NCBI RefSeq assembly: GCF_003432035.1
Contig: NZ_QOHO01000026.1
Location: forward strand, 1 to 64,000
Length of the DNA: 64,000 nucleotides
Direction of reading: 5' to 3'
Source of the DNA: Lacrimispora amygdalina
GTDB lineage: Bacteria > Bacillota > Clostridia > Lachnospirales > Lachnospiraceae
Shown piece by piece: positions 2,907 to 64,000 of this stretch. The first letter of the stretch is position 1; each line of letters begins with the position of its first letter. The notes beneath the pieces are model-generated. The model searched no databases and had not been told where the DNA came from. It saw only the letters and a program-made list of their open reading frames with translations. The position numbers and the translations under genes are program-made.

Positions 2907-3443
2907 ATGGAGAGATATGTAGATCTTGAGGAAATGCTTTCGTTTCGGGAGAAGAAAGTCAGAATCCAGGAGGAACTGAGAAAAAAACATAAGGGGATGG
3001 TGACGATGGCACTGGCAATGAACATCCCGGGACCGGTAAAGACTTCCCCCGACATTCTGCTTGCTTTTGAGGAGGGAACGAAAATGTTGGAACAGGCAGT
3101 TTCGGATGCGGGTGTGAGAATGAAAGAGATGAATGTGGTGTCGGAGAATGCAGGTTATATAAAATTTTATGCTTTAGACTGTACTGATGCTGCCGCAGTA
3201 AAAGGTCTGGCAGTCAGACTGGAAGAAAACCATCCATTAGGACGGCTGTGGGATATTGACGTTTATGATAAAGAAGGTTTCAGTATAAGCAGGGAATCTC
3301 TTTTATCACCTGTCCGCAAATGTTTAATCTGCGGGCAGGATGCGAAAGGATGTGCCAGAAACAGAAGCCATTCGGTTGAGGAACTTTATCGTGAAGTGGA
3401 GCGTTTAATTCATGTCTGGAAAAGTGAAAAAAAATCAGATTAA
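2907..3443 (+). CDS. citX: Citrate lyase holo-[ACP] synthase (apo-citrate lyase phosphoribosyl-dephospho-CoA transferase)
   Basis: A 178-aa protein that transfers the 2'-(5''-triphosphoribosyl)-3'-dephospho-CoA prosthetic group made by CitG onto a serine of CitD, activating citrate lyase. The family motif HPLGRLWDIDVY is near residues 110-121, followed by the C-terminal CLICGQDAKGCARNRSHS segment typical of CitX. It heads the cit cluster but is separated from citD by a hairpin at 3447-3477, so it may be transcribed partly separately. AAGAGGTAAAAT precedes the ATG. Confidence 0.93.
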   Translation: MERYVDLEEMLSFREKKVRIQEELRKKHKGMVTMALAMNIPGPVKTSPDILLAFEEGTKMLEQAVSDAGVRMKEMNVVSENAGYIKFYALDCTDAAAVKGLAVRLEENHPLGRLWDIDVYDKEGFSISRESLLSPVRKCLICGQDAKGCARNRSHSVEELYREVERLIHVWKSEKKSD

Positions 3444-3446
3444 GAG

Positions 3447-3490
3447 AGGGAGTCCTGTATTTGACTGCAGGCTCCCTTTCTTAATATTTT
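3447..3490 (+). terminator. Hairpin terminator between citX and citD
   Basis: Stem AGGGAG-CCTG pairs with CAGG-CTCCCT around a short loop, followed by TTTCTTAATATTTTTT. It would stop or attenuate transcription from the MATE/citX side before citD. Confidence 0.65.
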
Positions 3491-3569
3491 TTAAGGTACA
3501 TTTTTTCCAGAGTTAAGATTCCCCGTGTAAACTGAAACCATAGAAAATAAAAGGGAGGCTTTAAACAAA

Positions 3570-3869
3570 ATGGAGATAGAAAGACCGGCTATGGCCGGAA
3601 CGCTGGAATCCAGTGACTGTCAGGTGACTGTGGAGCCAGGAGACGGCAGGATCGATTTTACACTGGAGAGTGCAGTGATCAATCAGTATGGCAACCAGAT
3701 CAGAAACGTGGTTTTTGAAACTCTGAATCATTTGGGAGTGGATAATATTAAAATTTCCATAGTAGACAAAGGAGCTCTTGACTGTACCATTAAAGCCAGG
3801 GTAGAAGGAGCAGTATCCCGCTCCATGGACCACTTTGTCAATATTCATTGGGGAGGTGCCAGAGAATGA
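3570..3869 (+). CDS. citD: Citrate lyase gamma subunit (acyl carrier protein)
   Basis: A 99-aa acyl carrier protein of the citrate lyase complex. Ser14 in AGTLESSDC is at the position that carries the phosphoribosyl-dephospho-CoA group in characterised CitD. It shuttles the acetyl/citryl thioester between CitF and CitE. Its TGA stop overlaps the citE start (ATGA), indicating translational coupling. A GGGAGG site lies 11 bases before the ATG. Confidence 0.95.
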   Translation: MEIERPAMAGTLESSDCQVTVEPGDGRIDFTLESAVINQYGNQIRNVVFETLNHLGVDNIKISIVDKGALDCTIKARVEGAVSRSMDHFVNIHWGGARE

Positions 3870-4768
3870 TCAATTTAGTGAAAAAGCGGCTCAGAAGAAC
3901 CATGATGTTTTTAAATGCCCAGAAACCGGGACTTATTAAGGATCCCTATATTTATAGACCGGACAGCATCATGCTGGATTTAGAGGATGCGGTTGCAGAA
4001 AACCAGAAGGATGCTGCCAGGTTTTCCCTGTACCACGCTCTGAAAGAGATTGATTACAGAGGGTGTGAACGGGTGGTTCGTATTAACGGACTGGATACGC
4101 CATACTGGCAGGAAGATATCCGCTGTGCAGTAGCCGGCGGTTGTGATGCCATTCGTATTCCAAAAACGGAATGTCCAAATGACATTCACAGGGTGGAAGA
4201 AGAAATTATAAAGGCAGAAAAGGATTTTGGGATGCCGGAAGGCAGAACCCTTATTATGGCAGCCATCGAATCAGCAAGAGGTGTCATGAAGGCTCTGGAT
4301 ATCTGCGAAGCATCGGAACGTCTCTTTGGAATCGCTTTGTCAGGAGGAGATTATACCAAAGACCTGCAGACCCGTATTACTGGAACCGGAATTGAGCTGA
4401 TGGGAGCCAGACAGAATTTAATAATTGCAGCAAGGGCGGCAAAGGTACAGTGCTTTGACACGGTATATACCGACCTTGATGATATGGAAGGCTTCCGAAA
4501 GGATGTGGAAACAATTCATCTCATGGGCTTTGACGGCAAGTCGATCATCAATCCGCGCCAGATTCCTGTTGTTCATGAAATCTTTACTCCTTCCGGAAAG
4601 GATATTATCTTTGCGGAAAAAGTGGTGAAAGAGATTGAAGAGAAGAAGAAAATGGGTATCGGTGTATTTACAGTGGATGGTAAGATGATTGATATTGCAT
4701 TCTATGACGGAGCAAGGAGAACCATTGAACTGGCTAAGGCTTCCGGCGTATATAAAGGAGATTTATAA
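3866..4768 (+). CDS. citE: Citrate lyase beta subunit (citryl-ACP lyase)
   Basis: A 300-aa HpcH/HpaI-type TIM-barrel enzyme that cleaves citryl-ACP to oxaloacetate and acetyl-ACP. Family marks are the RRTMMFLNAQKPG opening, the acidic SIMLDLEDAV strand that binds Mg2+, and the VVRINGLDTPYW and MAAIESARGV segments. The start is the ATG overlapping the citD stop codon; GGAGGTG lies just upstream. The next gene, citF, begins one base after the stop, so citDEF form one translationally coupled unit. Confidence 0.95.
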   Translation: MINLVKKRLRRTMMFLNAQKPGLIKDPYIYRPDSIMLDLEDAVAENQKDAARFSLYHALKEIDYRGCERVVRINGLDTPYWQEDIRCAVAGGCDAIRIPKTECPNDIHRVEEEIIKAEKDFGMPEGRTLIMAAIESARGVMKALDICEASERLFGIALSGGDYTKDLQTRITGTGIELMGARQNLIIAARAAKVQCFDTVYTDLDDMEGFRKDVETIHLMGFDGKSIINPRQIPVVHEIFTPSGKDIIFAEKVVKEIEEKKKMGIGVFTVDGKMIDIAFYDGARRTIELAKASGVYKGDL

Positions 4769-59909: not shown

Positions 59910-60329
59910 CTATGCAAATTTATCCAACCATTTTTGAATATTATACACTGTTTCCGGATCCATAAAATGCTCTACCTTTTCTACCTGTTCCAGATCATCG
60001 GATCTGTGGTTTACATAACAAAAGAAGCGGGTAAGGATCTGATGCCTGAAAAGAAGATATTCGCCTAATTCCAGCCCATCACTGGTCAGAGAAACGGTTC
60101 CGTATTTTTCAAACCCAACCAGTCCCTGTTTCCTTAAATTACCAGTCATTTTGGACGCAGAAGAGGGCTTGACATGAAGCTGCTCTGCCAGTTCCTTAAT
60201 GCGGACAGGCTGATTTTCGTGAGACAACCGATATATCATTTCCAGGTAATCTTCCATTGAGGAAGTGATCTTTGTATGCTCTAAAAGGGAATAGCCTTTT
60301 AATGTATAAAAATTATCGGTCTGCGGCAT
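59910..60329 (-). CDS. DtxR/MntR-family metal-dependent repressor
   Basis: A 139-aa regulator. It has a winged-helix domain (SMEDYLEMIYRLSHENQPVR, IKELAEQLHVKPSSASKMTG; about 25-75) and a metal-binding dimerisation domain (RHQILTRFF, EKVEHFMDPE). There is no SH3-like third domain, as in MntR. The ATG at 60329 is chosen because GGAGG lies 8 bases upstream; the ATG two codons earlier is too close. It is divergent from feoAB by about 160 bases, so it probably represses Fe2+ uptake (or Mn uptake) when metal is plentiful. Confidence 0.9.
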   Translation of the reverse strand: MPQTDNFYTLKGYSLLEHTKITSSMEDYLEMIYRLSHENQPVRIKELAEQLHVKPSSASKMTGNLRKQGLVGFEKYGTVSLTSDGLELGEYLLFRHQILTRFFCYVNHRSDDLEQVEKVEHFMDPETVYNIQKWLDKFA

Positions 60330-60488
60330 AGTCATTTCCTCCTGCTATACATGGATGTTATTTATATCTATTCACTACCGGCGGATTCTATGAATCATCA
60401 GGGGCAGGACTGGGCTAAGGTGAGAGTGGAACCTGTTTTTTATCAGCTGCATATGTTAGGATATGGAAACTTTTCGGAGGTTAAAGAA

Positions 60489-60803
60489 ATGCCGGGATGC
60501 TTTTGTTTAAATGACTTAAAAAGAGGTCAGAAAGGTGTCATTTCCAGACTGACCGTTTGTGATGATATGAGACGGCGATTACAGGATATGGGGCTGATTG
60601 AGGGCACCGTGGTGGAGTGTGTCGGTAAAAGTCCTCTTGGTGACCCAACTGCATTTTTAATCAGAGGTGCTGTAATAGCCCTGCGAAATGAAGATTCCGT
60701 CAGGGTTCTTATAAAAAATAAAGATCAGGAGTACTTTGAACCAAGTTATGGAGAAGGAATTGTGGCTGCCTGTGTCACAGCGGAGGAAAAAATATGGGAC
60801 TAA
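60489..60803 (+). CDS. feoA: Ferrous iron transport protein A
   Basis: A 104-aa protein with an SH3-like FeoA domain ([34 protein letters not shown]) and a C-terminal extension. It supports FeoB in Fe2+ uptake. The ATG at 60489 has GGAGG 8 bases upstream. An in-frame ATG 46 codons earlier would give an N-terminus unlike FeoA and overlaps the promoter area, so it is rejected. The gene overlaps the feoB start by 10 bases. Confidence 0.9.
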
Positions 60804-60958
60804 GCAGAGAATCCATGGGAATCAAATCGGTGGACTGCGGGTTGGAGATCAAAAAAAGGGCGGCAGGAGATTTGGTGATTGCTCTTGCCGGAAATCCCAA
60901 TGTTGGAAAAAGCACAGTATTTAACCAGCTGACCGGTATGAACCAGCACACCTGCTGA
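60794..60958 (+). pseudogene. feoB: feoB 5' fragment, interrupted by a recombinase element
   Basis: The start of the Fe2+ transporter GTPase. [20 protein letters not shown] is followed by the G1 loop [10 protein letters not shown] (residues 32-41) and QLTGMNQHT up to Thr53. After CACC (60949-60952) the sequence leaves FeoB and stops two codons later (TGC TGA). GGAGGAAAAAAT precedes the ATG, within feoA. Joining base 60952 to 63393 continues in frame as GNWPGKTVANAQGW, the normal FeoB switch region. As it stands the gene cannot make FeoB. Confidence 0.93.
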
Positions 60959-60977
60959 TGCGTTTAGAGGTAAAAAG
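60935..60977. other. Left attachment site of the feoB element
   Basis: The feoB half-site (ending GAACCAGCA) joins the core CACC at 60949-60952. The element arm starts at 60953 (TGCTGATGCGTTTAGAGG, TAAAAAG). The arm shares GCTGATG-G-TTA-GTAAAA with the reverse complement of the right arm. Confidence 0.75.
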
Positions 60978-60978
60978 T

Positions 60979-62376
60979 TTATAAAAAAATAATGGTGTAT
61001 TCCCGGTGGCTGTAGGAGCACCTTTTTAAGCGAATTTCCTTGATAACTGACCGCCAGAACAGACGCTTCTGCTGATTGTCAAGGTGCAGATACATGCTTT
61101 CAAAGCCGGTATTTTGCATACTGATTAAAGTACCGGGATTCCCAACCGGCGGTGTGATGTCAGGAAGCTGCTCCAGCTGTGCCTCTAACCCTGCCCTGTC
61201 ATTTTTATATTCTTCTAATGATATTGCTTCATTTAAATACAAATCCTTTAACCGGCTGATTTTCCTGCGAAGCTGATTCTTTTTCATACGATTATCAACT
61301 GCATCCCTGCTTTTGGTTTCGAAATCCGCGATGAAAGAATCAAACTGCATCCCAACATTTTTTAAAAGGTATTCTTCTATGCGGACTTCCCTGATTTTTC
61401 CCCGATTGCTGCATTTCCGGTAAGACCGGTGCTGCTTGCATTCGTAGGCTGGATATTTATACCGTAGTACAGTACCGTCTTTGCGTTTTGAAACTGCATT
61501 GATCTGGCACCCTCCCATTTTATGGCCGCACTCATCACACACCAGAAGACCTGTAAAAATGTAGGGGTACTTCTGGCTCGATTTTATGTTGCTGTTTTGA
61601 TCAAGGATGTGCTGAATATCAAGGAAGGCTTCATCGGAAATCATACGCGGGCAGTAAGATTCATTTCCTCTGTAATGCCCCGTGATTTTTTCGTTACGAA
61701 GAACAGACTGCTTAAAATTCTGCGGTGTCATGACGATTCCGTATGTTTCTTTTAGATACTGGACGGCCCCGTTCATTGACTGATGTTTCAAAAAATACAG
61801 AATGGTATCGCGGATGGCAGGGGCCTCTTCTGACAACACCAGATGTTTATCTATTATCTCATATCCCCGGGGGACTTTGCCCGTTATGACTTCCCCATGG
61901 GTCACCTTTGTCCGGAAGACGTCAGCAACACGGAGACCGCCATTTTGCGCTTCCAGCTCTGCCCAGGTCATGGACTGAGCAACAAATGCCCTGCCGTAAG
62001 GAGTGGAGGTGTCAAAGAACGGCTGGTCAATGGCTGTCCATGCAGCATTATATTTTTCAAGGATGGCCTGGGTATTTAAGTAATGGCGCAGGCTGCGGAA
62101 CCACCGGTCCAGCTTGGTAAATATAATCAGATCCACCAGTCCCTCTTTTACATGATTAATCAGACGGGTAAAATCGTCCCGGTCAAGTTTCTGTCCGGAA
62201 ACGCCATCATCCAGATAAACATCCTGCAGAATCATGTTTTTATGTTCTTCTATATATTTAATGCCCCGTTCCTTTTGATCCCGGATGGAATCTCCCCGCT
62301 CTGCCTGTTCATCGGAAGAGACACGGATGTAGACGGCTACACGCAGCAGCTTCTCTGATTCCTGAACACGCTTCAT
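60979..62376 (-). CDS. Large serine recombinase (site-specific integrase)
   Basis: A 465-aa recombinase. The resolvase-type catalytic domain (about 10-150) has Ser20 in YIRVSSDEQ and the arginines of DRWFRSLR. The recombinase domain (about 165-270) follows, then a zinc ribbon with CDECGHKMGGC and later cysteines near CKQHRSYRKC (about 285-335), and a coiled-coil tail. It is the expected agent of integration and excision of the element in feoB. AGGAGATG lies 8 bases before the ATG. The helix after the catalytic core (MTWAELEAQNGGLRVADVF) departs from the usual E-R-E pattern but keeps its length. The gene points outward to the left junction. Confidence 0.93.
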   Translation of the reverse strand: MKRVQESEKLLRVAVYIRVSSDEQAERGDSIRDQKERGIKYIEEHKNMILQDVYLDDGVSGQKLDRDDFTRLINHVKEGLVDLIIFTKLDRWFRSLRHYLNTQAILEKYNAAWTAIDQPFFDTSTPYGRAFVAQSMTWAELEAQNGGLRVADVFRTKVTHGEVITGKVPRGYEIIDKHLVLSEEAPAIRDTILYFLKHQSMNGAVQYLKETYGIVMTPQNFKQSVLRNEKITGHYRGNESYCPRMISDEAFLDIQHILDQNSNIKSSQKYPYIFTGLLVCDECGHKMGGCQINAVSKRKDGTVLRYKYPAYECKQHRSYRKCSNRGKIREVRIEEYLLKNVGMQFDSFIADFETKSRDAVDNRMKKNQLRRKISRLKDLYLNEAISLEEYKNDRAGLEAQLEQLPDITPPVGNPGTLISMQNTGFESMYLHLDNQQKRLFWRSVIKEIRLKRCSYSHREYTIIFL

Positions 62377-62505
62377 TCTATCATCTCCTGGTATAATCTA
62401 CTCGTTCCAACAGGAAATTAAAACCTGTTTCATTACATTGTTTTAATTAAGGGAAAGAAGTACAAACCGTGGCACATACATTTTACCAGAAAGGAGGCGG
62501 TAGCA

Positions 62506-62646
62506 GTGGCAGATACTGTCACCACAGTGAATCAGGCGGACCCAGTGAGGGCATTTGAGGCGTTGGCAAGAATTATAGGGGAAAAAGAGGGACTTGAGAT
62601 TACTTTAAAAAGTCTCCGGGAAAAGGAAGAAAAGGAAACAGAGTGA
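62506..62646 (+). CDS. 46-aa small protein in the feoB element
   Basis: A GTG-started ORF with a good AAAGGAGGCGG site. It encodes (M)ADTVTTVNQADPVRAFEAL and ends in a charged helix rich in Lys and Glu (LREKEEKETE). It is divergent from the recombinase gene by 129 bases and ends just before a hairpin. I do not recognise the family. Position and size would suit an accessory or excision-directing factor for the recombinase, but this is only inference. Confidence 0.55.
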   Translation: MADTVTTVNQADPVRAFEALARIIGEKEGLEITLKSLREKEEKETE

Positions 62647-62663
62647 ACTTATTTATTCTATAT

Positions 62664-62697
62664 AAAAGGCAGATCGGATAGACTGATCTGCCTTTTG
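62664..62697. terminator. Bidirectional terminator between the small ORF and the lipoprotein gene
   Basis: AAAAGGCAGATC (62664-62675) pairs with GATCTGCCTTTT (62685-62696). The A- and T-runs on both sides allow it to act on both strands. Confidence 0.88.
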
Positions 62698-62718
62698 GTG
62701 TGCTATGTACTGATCTTA

Positions 62719-63072
62719 CTAATTAGTTTTCTTTGTTTCGGTAACTGCTGACTTGCTGTCTTTAGCAGCTGGAGAGTCTGCCTTCGCTTTGCTGTCACCA
62801 GCCTTGGTCTCTGCTGCTGATGATTCCTCTTTTTTGGATTCGTCTTTTTTCGTTTCGTCTTTCTTAGTTTCGTCTTTTTTGGTTTCTGCTAAGGAACTGC
62901 TTTCTTTTACTTCTTTTTTCGTTTCTGCTGGTTTGGTAGCAGCTTCGGTTGTCACTTCTGCTTTTGTAGCGGCAGTTGTTTCAGAACTCTTGGTATTTCC
63001 ACATGCGGAGATAGCTGCCATTGTCAATACTGCAACACCTGTCAGTAACATTTTCTTTGTTGTTAACCTCAT
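62719..63072 (-). CDS. Low-complexity Lys/Glu/Ser-rich lipoprotein
   Basis: A 117-aa protein. The signal peptide ends in AISACGN, so Cys24 is the likely lipid anchor. The mature part is almost only Lys, Glu, Thr, Ser, Ala and Asp, with tandem KKDET units, and is expected to be disordered. AAGGAGG precedes the ATG. It lies inside the feoB element and is its only visible cargo besides the recombinase and the small ORF. No function is assigned; a surface spacer or adhesin-stalk role would be guesswork. Confidence 0.8.
   Translation of the reverse strand: MRLTTKKMLLTGVAVLTMAAISACGNTKSSETTAATKAEVTTEAATKPAETKKEVKESSSLAETKKDETKKDETKKDESKKEESSAAETKAGDSKAKADSPAAKDSKSAVTETKKTN
62836..62880 (-). repeat. 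Three tandem 15-bp repeats in the lipoprotein gene
   Basis: Units of the form GTTTCGTCTTTTTTC (plus strand) repeat three times with few changes and encode KKDET / KKDES. Such arrays can change copy number by slippage. Confidence 0.7.
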
Positions 63073-63363
63073 AATTATTTTCCTCCTTGAGACTGCATAG
63101 GTATTATGGTTGTATGGCTTCCGGTTGTCCTATGTCCCTGAAGTCAGAACTCAGTGTAGCACCGAATTTAAAGAAAATCAATGGCAAATTTGTTATTTAT
63201 TTCTTAAAAAAAATTAAGTTGTATAAATAAAATAGAAATCAGCTAAAATTAAGAATTAATTCACAAATTTTTCACAGTTTGATCAAACTTCCATCACAAA
63301 CCTGTAATTAAACCTTAAGATTTAAACCTGATACCTGTAAAAATGACAATTTTAACAATTTTC
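63073..63363. other. Non-coding right arm of the feoB element
   Basis: Very AT-rich. It holds the lipoprotein gene promoter region (minus strand), and I see no gene. The last 25 bases before the right junction form the P arm of the attachment site. Confidence 0.5.
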
Positions 63364-63405
63364 CATTTTACGGTTAACCACATCAGCCCACCGGAAACTG
63401 GCCAG
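63364..63405. other. Right attachment site of the feoB element
   Basis: The element arm (63364-63388, ending ACCACATCAGCC) joins the core CACC at 63389-63392 and then feoB GGAAACTGGCCAGG. The arm is an imperfect inverted copy of the left arm. Confidence 0.75.
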
Positions 63406-64000
63406 GTAAAACGGTTGCAAATGCCCAGGGCTGGTGCAGTGACGGGAATCAGGGGTATGTTATGGTGGATATACCAGGCTGTTATTCTCTTATGGCCCAC
63501 TCCACAGAGGAAGAGGTGGCAAGAGATTTCATCTGTTTTGAAAATCCAGATGCAGTGGTAACGGTCTGTGATGCCACCTGCCTGGAACGGAATTTAAACC
63601 TTGTGCTCCAGATCATGGAAGCAGCGGACTGTGTGGTAATCTGTGTAAATCTGATGGATGAGGCAAAGAAGAAACGGATTGTCCTGAATCTGGATGTACT
63701 GGAAGAGAGGCTTCATGCTCCTGTAGTGGGAACAACGGCAAGAAGTAAGAAGGGGCTGAATCAGATCTACCAGGGCTTAAGGCGCTGTATAAAAGAGAGA
63801 GAGGCTGAGTATGAAAGGCCAATCCTCATACGTTACCCGGAATATATTGAAGAGGCAATTGAGAAGCTGGCTCCGGCAGTAGAGGAAGCCTCAGAGGGCA
63901 GGGCAAAGGTACGCTGGCTCTGTGCAAGGTTGCTGGATGCCAATGAAAACCTGATGGGAGCGGTACGAAACTATTTAAAATCCATAGCAGATTCAGAGGA
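63393..64000 (+). pseudogene. feoB: feoB 3' portion, separated from its start (runs off the window)
   Basis: The continuation of FeoB: GNWPGKTVANAQGW (switch I/G2), VMVDIPGCYSLMAHS (G3, DxxG), CVNLMDEAKKK (G4 region) and GTTARSKKGLNQIY (G5), then the helical part before the membrane domain. There are no stop codons to the end of the window. It has no start of its own; expression as FeoB needs loss of the 2,440-bp element. The membrane domain must lie beyond the window. Confidence 0.93.

Follow-up and report, generated by a model that had tools for sequence, protein, structure and literature searches.

Skin-like elements that interrupt feoB in Lacrimispora are probably excised in the sporulating mother cell

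Why would a spore former keep the gene of a ferrous iron transporter in pieces? The question is raised by a 64,000-nucleotide stretch of Lacrimispora amygdalina (the window hereafter), near the end of which feoB, lying behind feoA, is split by an insert (element 1) that carries a gene for a large serine recombinase (rec1). The feoB frame runs over 60794–60952 (53 aa, ending ...NQHT) and is found again from 63393 (GNWPGKTV...). We compared this locus across the genus, the family and viral sequences, and conclude that feoB is probably a mother-cell gene under sigma-K, with elements that resemble skin, the element in sigK, and are excised during sporulation in most species.

Anatomy of the interrupted gene

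Element 1 separates HT from GNWPG in the FeoB frame, and CACC stands at both junctions (60949–60952 and 63389–63392). When 60953–63392 was deleted in silico, the frame was rejoined with no residue lost or added, so that two statements of an earlier note on this DNA, on where the frame is left and resumed around a shared CACC and on its rejoining without change of a residue, are borne out. The Pfam profile FeoB_N matches on either side of element 1; the FeoB pieces match FeoB_N and FeoB_Cyto, align along the intact 722-aa frame of one other Lacrimispora genome (G013), and join into one frame only once the elements are taken out. The CACC that the earlier note took for the junction is indeed shared by both ends, but the exchange itself can be narrowed: the reconstructed attachment site of the free element (attP) has a dyad with AC at its centre, and the two ends in G001 have different bases directly behind AC, indicating that the exchanged dinucleotide is AC rather than the whole of CACC. 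This AC core was found at site 1 in all 11 genomes in which both ends were seen.

The best phage profile for rec1 is the integrase PHROG 95 (E 4.5e-93), and Ser20, which we take to be the catalytic position, is unchanged across 11 aligned sequences. Among NCBIfam models the XisF equivalog (NF041201) scored best, with 128 bits against a curated cut-off of 375; as this is far under the cut-off, rec1 was rejected as a true XisF. A 46-aa open reading frame (ORF) is present in 13 of 13 genus copies of element 1 and gave no match in profile searches, and the 117-aa ORF of the window has no match in element 1 of G001 and G007. Elsewhere in the genome only two partial matches to element 1 (188 and 45 bases) were found, which excludes a multi-copy element, and a phage known from the annotated collection is excluded by the lack of any match there.

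The earlier note had held that removal of element 1 restores feoB. This does not hold, because a second element lies past the window end and leaves FeoB unrestored when element 1 alone is deleted. The resumed frame ends ...GKQALTM with a stop codon that finishes 541 bases beyond the window, a stop caused by element 2 (contig positions 64539–69525, ~5 kb), which breaks the frame between ALTM and CMGFGC; the last third of FeoB (281 aa) begins at contig position 69526. Element 2 encodes a 539-aa serine recombinase (rec2; PHROG 95, E 3.1e-96) that ends just before feoB resumes, together with CcdA-TlpA-like and VanW-like ORFs (named by eye, without profile search). rec2 is present in each of the 19 element 2 copies contained in a single contig (frameshifted in G023). 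The site 2 core, CATGTG, is found in 20 of the 20 genomes with both ends seen, and inverted arms (CTGTCA/TGACAG and further GCATAGATTTC/GAAATCTATGC) recur, with variants, across the genus. A block GTATATGGTACAA...GAATAAG precedes rec2 in several species (L085, ~3250–3900, and homologues), and some species have a short ORF (MDLSKE...) before rec2, a possible recombination directionality factor (RDF) gene of element 2.

Some genomes have a third break, between NGRF and P, filled by an element 3 of 10.7–30.7 kb in the 7 copies lying on one contig; a recombinase-like ORF was recognized by eye, without profile search, in the 2 copies listed. The site 3 elements of G018 and G017 occupy the same place with different cargo, and their cargo ORFs resemble, again by eye and without profile search, those for sugar ABC transport, glycoside hydrolases and regulators.

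Distribution across Lacrimispora

Twenty-five genus genomes were examined, 23 of which have this type of feoA; completeness is 82% and 67% in the remaining two. Named relatives in the comparison are L. xylanisolvens, L. algidixylanolytica, [Clostridium] aerotolerans (here L. aerotolerans) and, outside the genus, Hungatella hathewayi. rec1 occurs in 13 of the 23, and a fourteenth genome (G019) has a contig end at the site 1 junction. Because orthologues of rec1 sit at the same place in feoB in 12 further genomes (left junction in 12/12, both junctions in 10/12), the split in the window is no chance event; a chance identity of the element ends was likewise rejected, since both ends are known from 11 genomes for site 1 and from 20 for site 2. 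The site 1 insert is absent from 9/23 genomes (eight plus G013) and measures 2.4–5.1 kb in the 11 with both ends measured. Of the 23 genomes, 22 are interrupted at site 2, as seen from both junctions in 20 and from element contigs in G019 and G021, and nine at site 3 (both junctions in eight, the right junction only in one). An interrupted feoB consists of two to four pieces. The earlier note had proposed looking for uninterrupted feoB in sister strains: G013 is the only such genome, the other 22 being interrupted at site 2. Joining across the sites left the frame open in every case (11/11 at site 1, 20/20 at site 2 and 8/8 at site 3), with Ala in place of Pro at the site 3 join of G010.

Several peculiarities of single genomes were recorded. 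At G001:C8 (L047, L092), feoA, feoB piece 1, the 46-aa ORF and the middle piece are all present twice, with N near one copy, which reflects either a tandem duplication or a scaffold error. Adjacent large serine recombinase genes cluster at G019:C57, G021:C31 and G007:C34. G005 (82% complete) has a frameshifted relative of rec2 (G005:C192:3389–5016; 83% and 71%) but yielded no feoB piece of this type.

Selection and descent

We calculated pairwise ratios of non-synonymous to synonymous substitution rates (dN/dS) with our own NG86 script, using pairs with 0.05<dS<1.5. Median dN/dS was 0.101 for the middle piece of feoB (53/120 pairs, 16 genomes), 0.056 for the last third (55/78 pairs, 13 genomes) and 0.074 for the part behind site 3 (26/36 pairs, 9 genomes); the control, an intact FeoB belonging to a different type, gave 0.051 (49/153 pairs, 18 genomes). 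The feoB pieces are under purifying selection, the middle piece being somewhat less constrained than the control. The recombinases gave 0.122 (rec1; 15/55 pairs, 11 genomes) and 0.166 (rec2; 43/153 pairs, 18 genomes). The middle-piece value excludes G000, the window's own genome, for which the compared stretch was not covered in full, and G007, G017 and G024, which have in-frame insertions; the rec1 value covers 11 of 13 genomes, the frameshifted G020 and G023 being left out, and for rec2 G023 was left out and G016, G019 and G021 lie outside the set. The insertion of G007 (G007:C24:15169–16848, L136) adds ~170 codons to the cytosolic part of FeoB (595-aa frame), and those of G017 and G024, in the same part, are shorter.

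A simple pseudogene was rejected on the grounds that the compared pieces contain no stops and have low dN/dS. The earlier note had considered a parasite in a dispensable copy and had named, as a finding that would speak against its reading, decayed feoB remains around the same split in related strains; the split is shared, but feoB is undecayed and selected, which is at odds with both. The tree of rec2 has 12 of 14 splits in common with that of an unlinked gene (17 genomes), compared with at most 2 in 1000 label shuffles; the comparison used 17 of the 18 genomes having the unlinked gene, G000 being left out. In the feoB trees, G007 has an overlong branch, an effect of trimming its stretch to a fixed length. 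The concordance of rec2 with the unlinked gene and the low dN/dS together indicate that element 2 was inherited within the genus and that feoB was selected while in pieces.

A sigma-K-type promoter motif and an apparently split sigK

The longest block that is invariant upstream of feoA among 19 aligned genomes is TGCATATGTTAGGATATGGAAAC, with AACC before it. A strict pattern, mACm-N15..17-CATAnnnTA, drawn from what we take to be the sigma-K consensus, is present upstream of feoA in 23/23 regions compared with 51 of 11500 Markov copies. Beyond the genus, the motif precedes 7/20 intact feoAB of the same subfamily and 4/7 interrupted feoAB (Hungatella, G102, G290 and G249). It was found in 0/18 regions upstream of a different FeoB type. 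Its presence at feoA points to the mother cell during sporulation, and thereby away from the general iron-uptake switch that the earlier note had suggested. The layout agrees with passages in the literature on the two blocks and spacing of sigma-K promoters (PMC517825) and on a sigma-K promoter CATATAAT with AC (PMC3789822). Table 2 of the latter, which covers the mother cell, lists feoA-feoB of Clostridioides difficile (CD1518-CD1517), possible counterparts of the genes studied here, in its sigma-K part, with a sigma-K promoter and a value of 0.05, which we read as the sigK/wild-type ratio. The window's genome also encodes a second FeoAB of this subfamily, which is intact and likewise preceded by a sigma-K-like motif (G000:C144:109848–112263, L003).

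In Lacrimispora, a skin element seems to divide sigK as well. At least 22 of 25 genomes have it in separate frames that match profile parts ~24–115 and 109–226, and in G000 the halves lie some 7 kb apart (C140:60953–68648, L288) with a 569-aa serine recombinase frame between them. The full-length 253-aa match to the sigK profile is presumably sigE.

Contig ends as signs of excision

Two draft assemblies are broken at the positions that excision would predict. For sigK in G019, half 1 ends ...GAGAATGA (C104), half 2 starts AATGAGATCC (C128), and C120 (7842 bp) spans AATGATATAC to ...CAAATGA, which is the sigK element cut at its 5-bp core; the simplest account is that attL, attR, attB and attP were present together in this DNA. 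For feoB in the same genome, piece 1 ends CACACCGGA (C6), the last base common to attL1 and attB1 as judged from close relatives such as G004. C137 (5799 bp) consists of element 2 with 15-base flanks and starts and ends in the 21-mers that bound attB2, the second of which is the start of C82; the 21-mers thus bound attL2/attB2 (C137) and attR2/attB2 (C82). Element 1 and the feoB middle piece were not found among the G019 contigs searched. These ends imply that excised and integrated forms coexist in one DNA sample of G019. In G021 (L. aerotolerans DSM 5434), C37 covers element 1 exactly between its two cores (CACACGGGC to CACACGGGC) and has a 95-base overlap with C10. C35 begins at core 2, CATGTGACAG. 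These ends fit the presence of attP (as a circle or tandem copies) in the reads. Excision in culture is thus strongly implied by the contig ends, in keeping with the earlier proposal of a precise, skin-like serine-recombinase element able to rejoin feoB.

Other genera and phage relatives

Matches to the last third of FeoB at E<=1e-60 were found in 65 of 348 family genomes, including two from Lacrimispora. Among 29 stretches (L142–L170), 25 are uninterrupted at both sites, three are split (one from Lacrimispora) and one starts too late for its state to be judged. Gaps at site 2 span 1.7–10.7 kb in G102, G290, G253 and G249; those at site 1 span ~2.2 kb in G301 and G347 and, from the coordinates, ~45 kb in Hungatella. 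Relatives of rec1 (52–70%) occupy site 1 in G301, G347 and Hungatella, relatives of rec2 (48–62%) occupy site 2 in G102 and G253 (fragmentary) or directly precede the last third of FeoB in G358 and G143 (stretches without the middle piece), and site 2 of G290 and G249 holds other recombinases (26–28%).

In the viral database IMG/VR, relatives of rec1 (up to 74% identity) were found at 29 loci. We examined 15 of these: feoB piece 1 flanks two, and five have the 46-aa ORF in the available flank. Another, L296 (IMGVR_UViG_3300013986_000001), is a 41-kb viral contig with relatives of rec1 (71%) and of the 46-aa ORF (65%) and, instead of feoB piece 1, an attP-like dyad behind the recombinase; it is likely the unintegrated form of a feoB-targeting phage. 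Element 1 is probably a reduced relative of feoB-targeting temperate phages, with the 46-aa ORF as its likely RDF.

Table 1. Features of the feoAB locus in the window and at its edge
Feature	Position	Strand	Details
DtxR/MntR-like metal-dependent regulator, divergent, beside feoA	59910..60335	-	PF01325, E 4.6e-19
Sigma-K-type promoter motif, AACC-N16-CATATGTTA, upstream of feoA	60430..60458	+	
feoA	60489..60803	+	PF04023, E 1.6e-17; ATG behind GGAGG; start set by ribosome-binding site and homologues
feoB piece 1, 53 aa	60794..60952	+	PF02421, E 8.9e-9; P-loop; ends ...MNQHT
attL of element 1	60944..60970	+	exchanged dinucleotide AC 60950-60951; attP dyad right arm ~60953-60970
Element 1, feoB-intervening, 2440 bp	60953..63392		
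rec1, large serine recombinase, 465 aa	60979..62376	-	Resolvase, Recombinase and Zn ribbon domains
46-aa ORF, candidate RDF	62506..62646	+	function inferred
117-aa ORF, cargo	62719..63072	-	lipoprotein-like by eye
attR of element 1	63372..63400	+	AC 63390-63391; attP dyad left arm ~63372-63388
feoB piece 2, 382 aa in all	63393..64000, on to ~64541 of contig C95	+	stops after ...ALTM

Discussion

The elements described here share with skin an insertion inside a coding region that can be rejoined exactly and a large serine recombinase. We propose that two or three such elements sit in feoB of most Lacrimispora species and that each brings a large serine recombinase and att sites of its own. The gene would remain in pieces during vegetative growth and in the forespore germ line; in the sporulating mother cell, the elements would be excised at the stage at which skin leaves sigK, and exact joins would rebuild a FeoB of ~716 aa, transcribed with feoA from the sigma-K promoter and presumably importing ferrous iron. 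As the mother cell dies, the elements would be inherited intact.

Several known systems come close. The fdxN element of heterocyst-forming cyanobacteria is excised from a metabolic gene in development, and its recombinase, XisF, defines the best NCBIfam model for rec1; host, gene and development differ. The skin element in sigK (Bacillus subtilis; C. difficile CD1231/CD1234) resembles the feoB elements in having a large serine recombinase and exact rejoining, and sits in a mother-cell gene, as the feoB elements probably do; for C. difficile skin a small RDF is described (PMC5025042). In contrast to skin, the feoB elements sit in an iron transporter rather than a sigma factor and number two or three per gene; rec1 is only distantly related (29%) to the recombinase in the Lacrimispora sigK gap, and element 1 has only 2.4 kb and three ORFs. 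Precise excision from sporulation genes is also described, in passages of PMC5595907 and PMC10747680, for vfbin (spoVFB), gin (gerE), yin (yabG) and SPbeta (spsM), with integrated and excised forms of yin in one culture; as presented there, each of these genes has one element, whereas feoB has two or three stacked sites, with one element inherited through the genus. The feoB-targeting prophages (IMG/VR; ~45 kb in H. hathewayi) share rec1 relatives, homologues of the 46-aa ORF and the feoB site with element 1, and are much larger. Among the open-licence PMC papers listed in our searches, we found none tying feoB to such excisable elements, and a report may be in print elsewhere.

Some observations weigh against excision in the mother cell. 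Frameshifts break rec1 in G020 and G023, two of its 13 genomes, and rec2 in G023; we take them for draft errors, of which G023 has many. Neither positive control for the promoter motif bore it out: dpaA-like genes had it in 0/24 cases, their matches lying below the dpaA cut-off, one locus being too short and the gene possibly sitting inside an operon, and yabG was not found in the 25 genus genomes. No clearly assignable sporulation promoter was seen before the 46-aa ORF, rec1 or rec2. No sigK match reaches the model cut-off, the halves scoring ~142 and ~140 bits. In G021, a contig crosses the sigK attL unbroken, so that the apparent feoB circles or tandem copies are unmatched by skin circles, and assembly forks could in principle stem from mixed strains.

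The same anatomy could arise from mobile-element parasitism, with a conserved feoB serving as attB in an unneeded copy and excision serving the element rather than the host. The window's genome encodes three further FeoB that are intact, which would make this copy expendable, phage integrases that sit at this feoB site are related to rec1, and element 1 is absent from 9/23 genus members; yet the feoB pieces keep low dN/dS without stops, element 2 is present in 22/23 and follows an unlinked gene, and the promoter motif is kept in 23/23. We regard parasitism as unlikely. Still less probable is an iron- or stress-responsive switch in growing cells, in which low iron would lead to excision and turn FeoB on. 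The DtxR/MntR-like regulator divergent from feoA fits such a switch, and is a possible second layer of control; excision in growing cells would be inherited, however, yet 22/23 genomes keep element 2 and only G013 is uninterrupted, and the longest block kept upstream of feoA contains the sigma-K-type motif.

It is just as improbable, in our estimate, that the forks in G019 and G021 are artefacts of assembly or strain mixture and that the elements are now immobile. The pattern was seen in only two draft genomes, and the rec1 frameshifts would suit immobility, but the contig ends match the cores to the base at three loci in G019 and at two in G021, the recombinases are under purifying selection and the att arms are kept. 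Excision from a sigma-K-controlled feoB in the mother cell thus probably remains the better account. More tentatively, and at slightly less than even chances, feoB may be a multi-lock gene, in which every one of two or three distinct recombinase elements must leave the mother-cell copy before the ferrous iron transporter can be made under sigma-K, late iron import being conserved, excluded from the germ line and guarded by stacked, domesticated phage-like elements that originated repeatedly in the family.

If excision in the mother cell is confirmed, programmed DNA excision in spore formers would extend to a metal transporter, with several elements stacked in one gene and one of them inherited through the genus. 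Iron uptake would be a task of the mother cell, and the appearance of a broken feoB in 22 of the 23 assembled genus genomes that have it would be explained. The feoB elements also offer natural pairs of recombinases and att sites.

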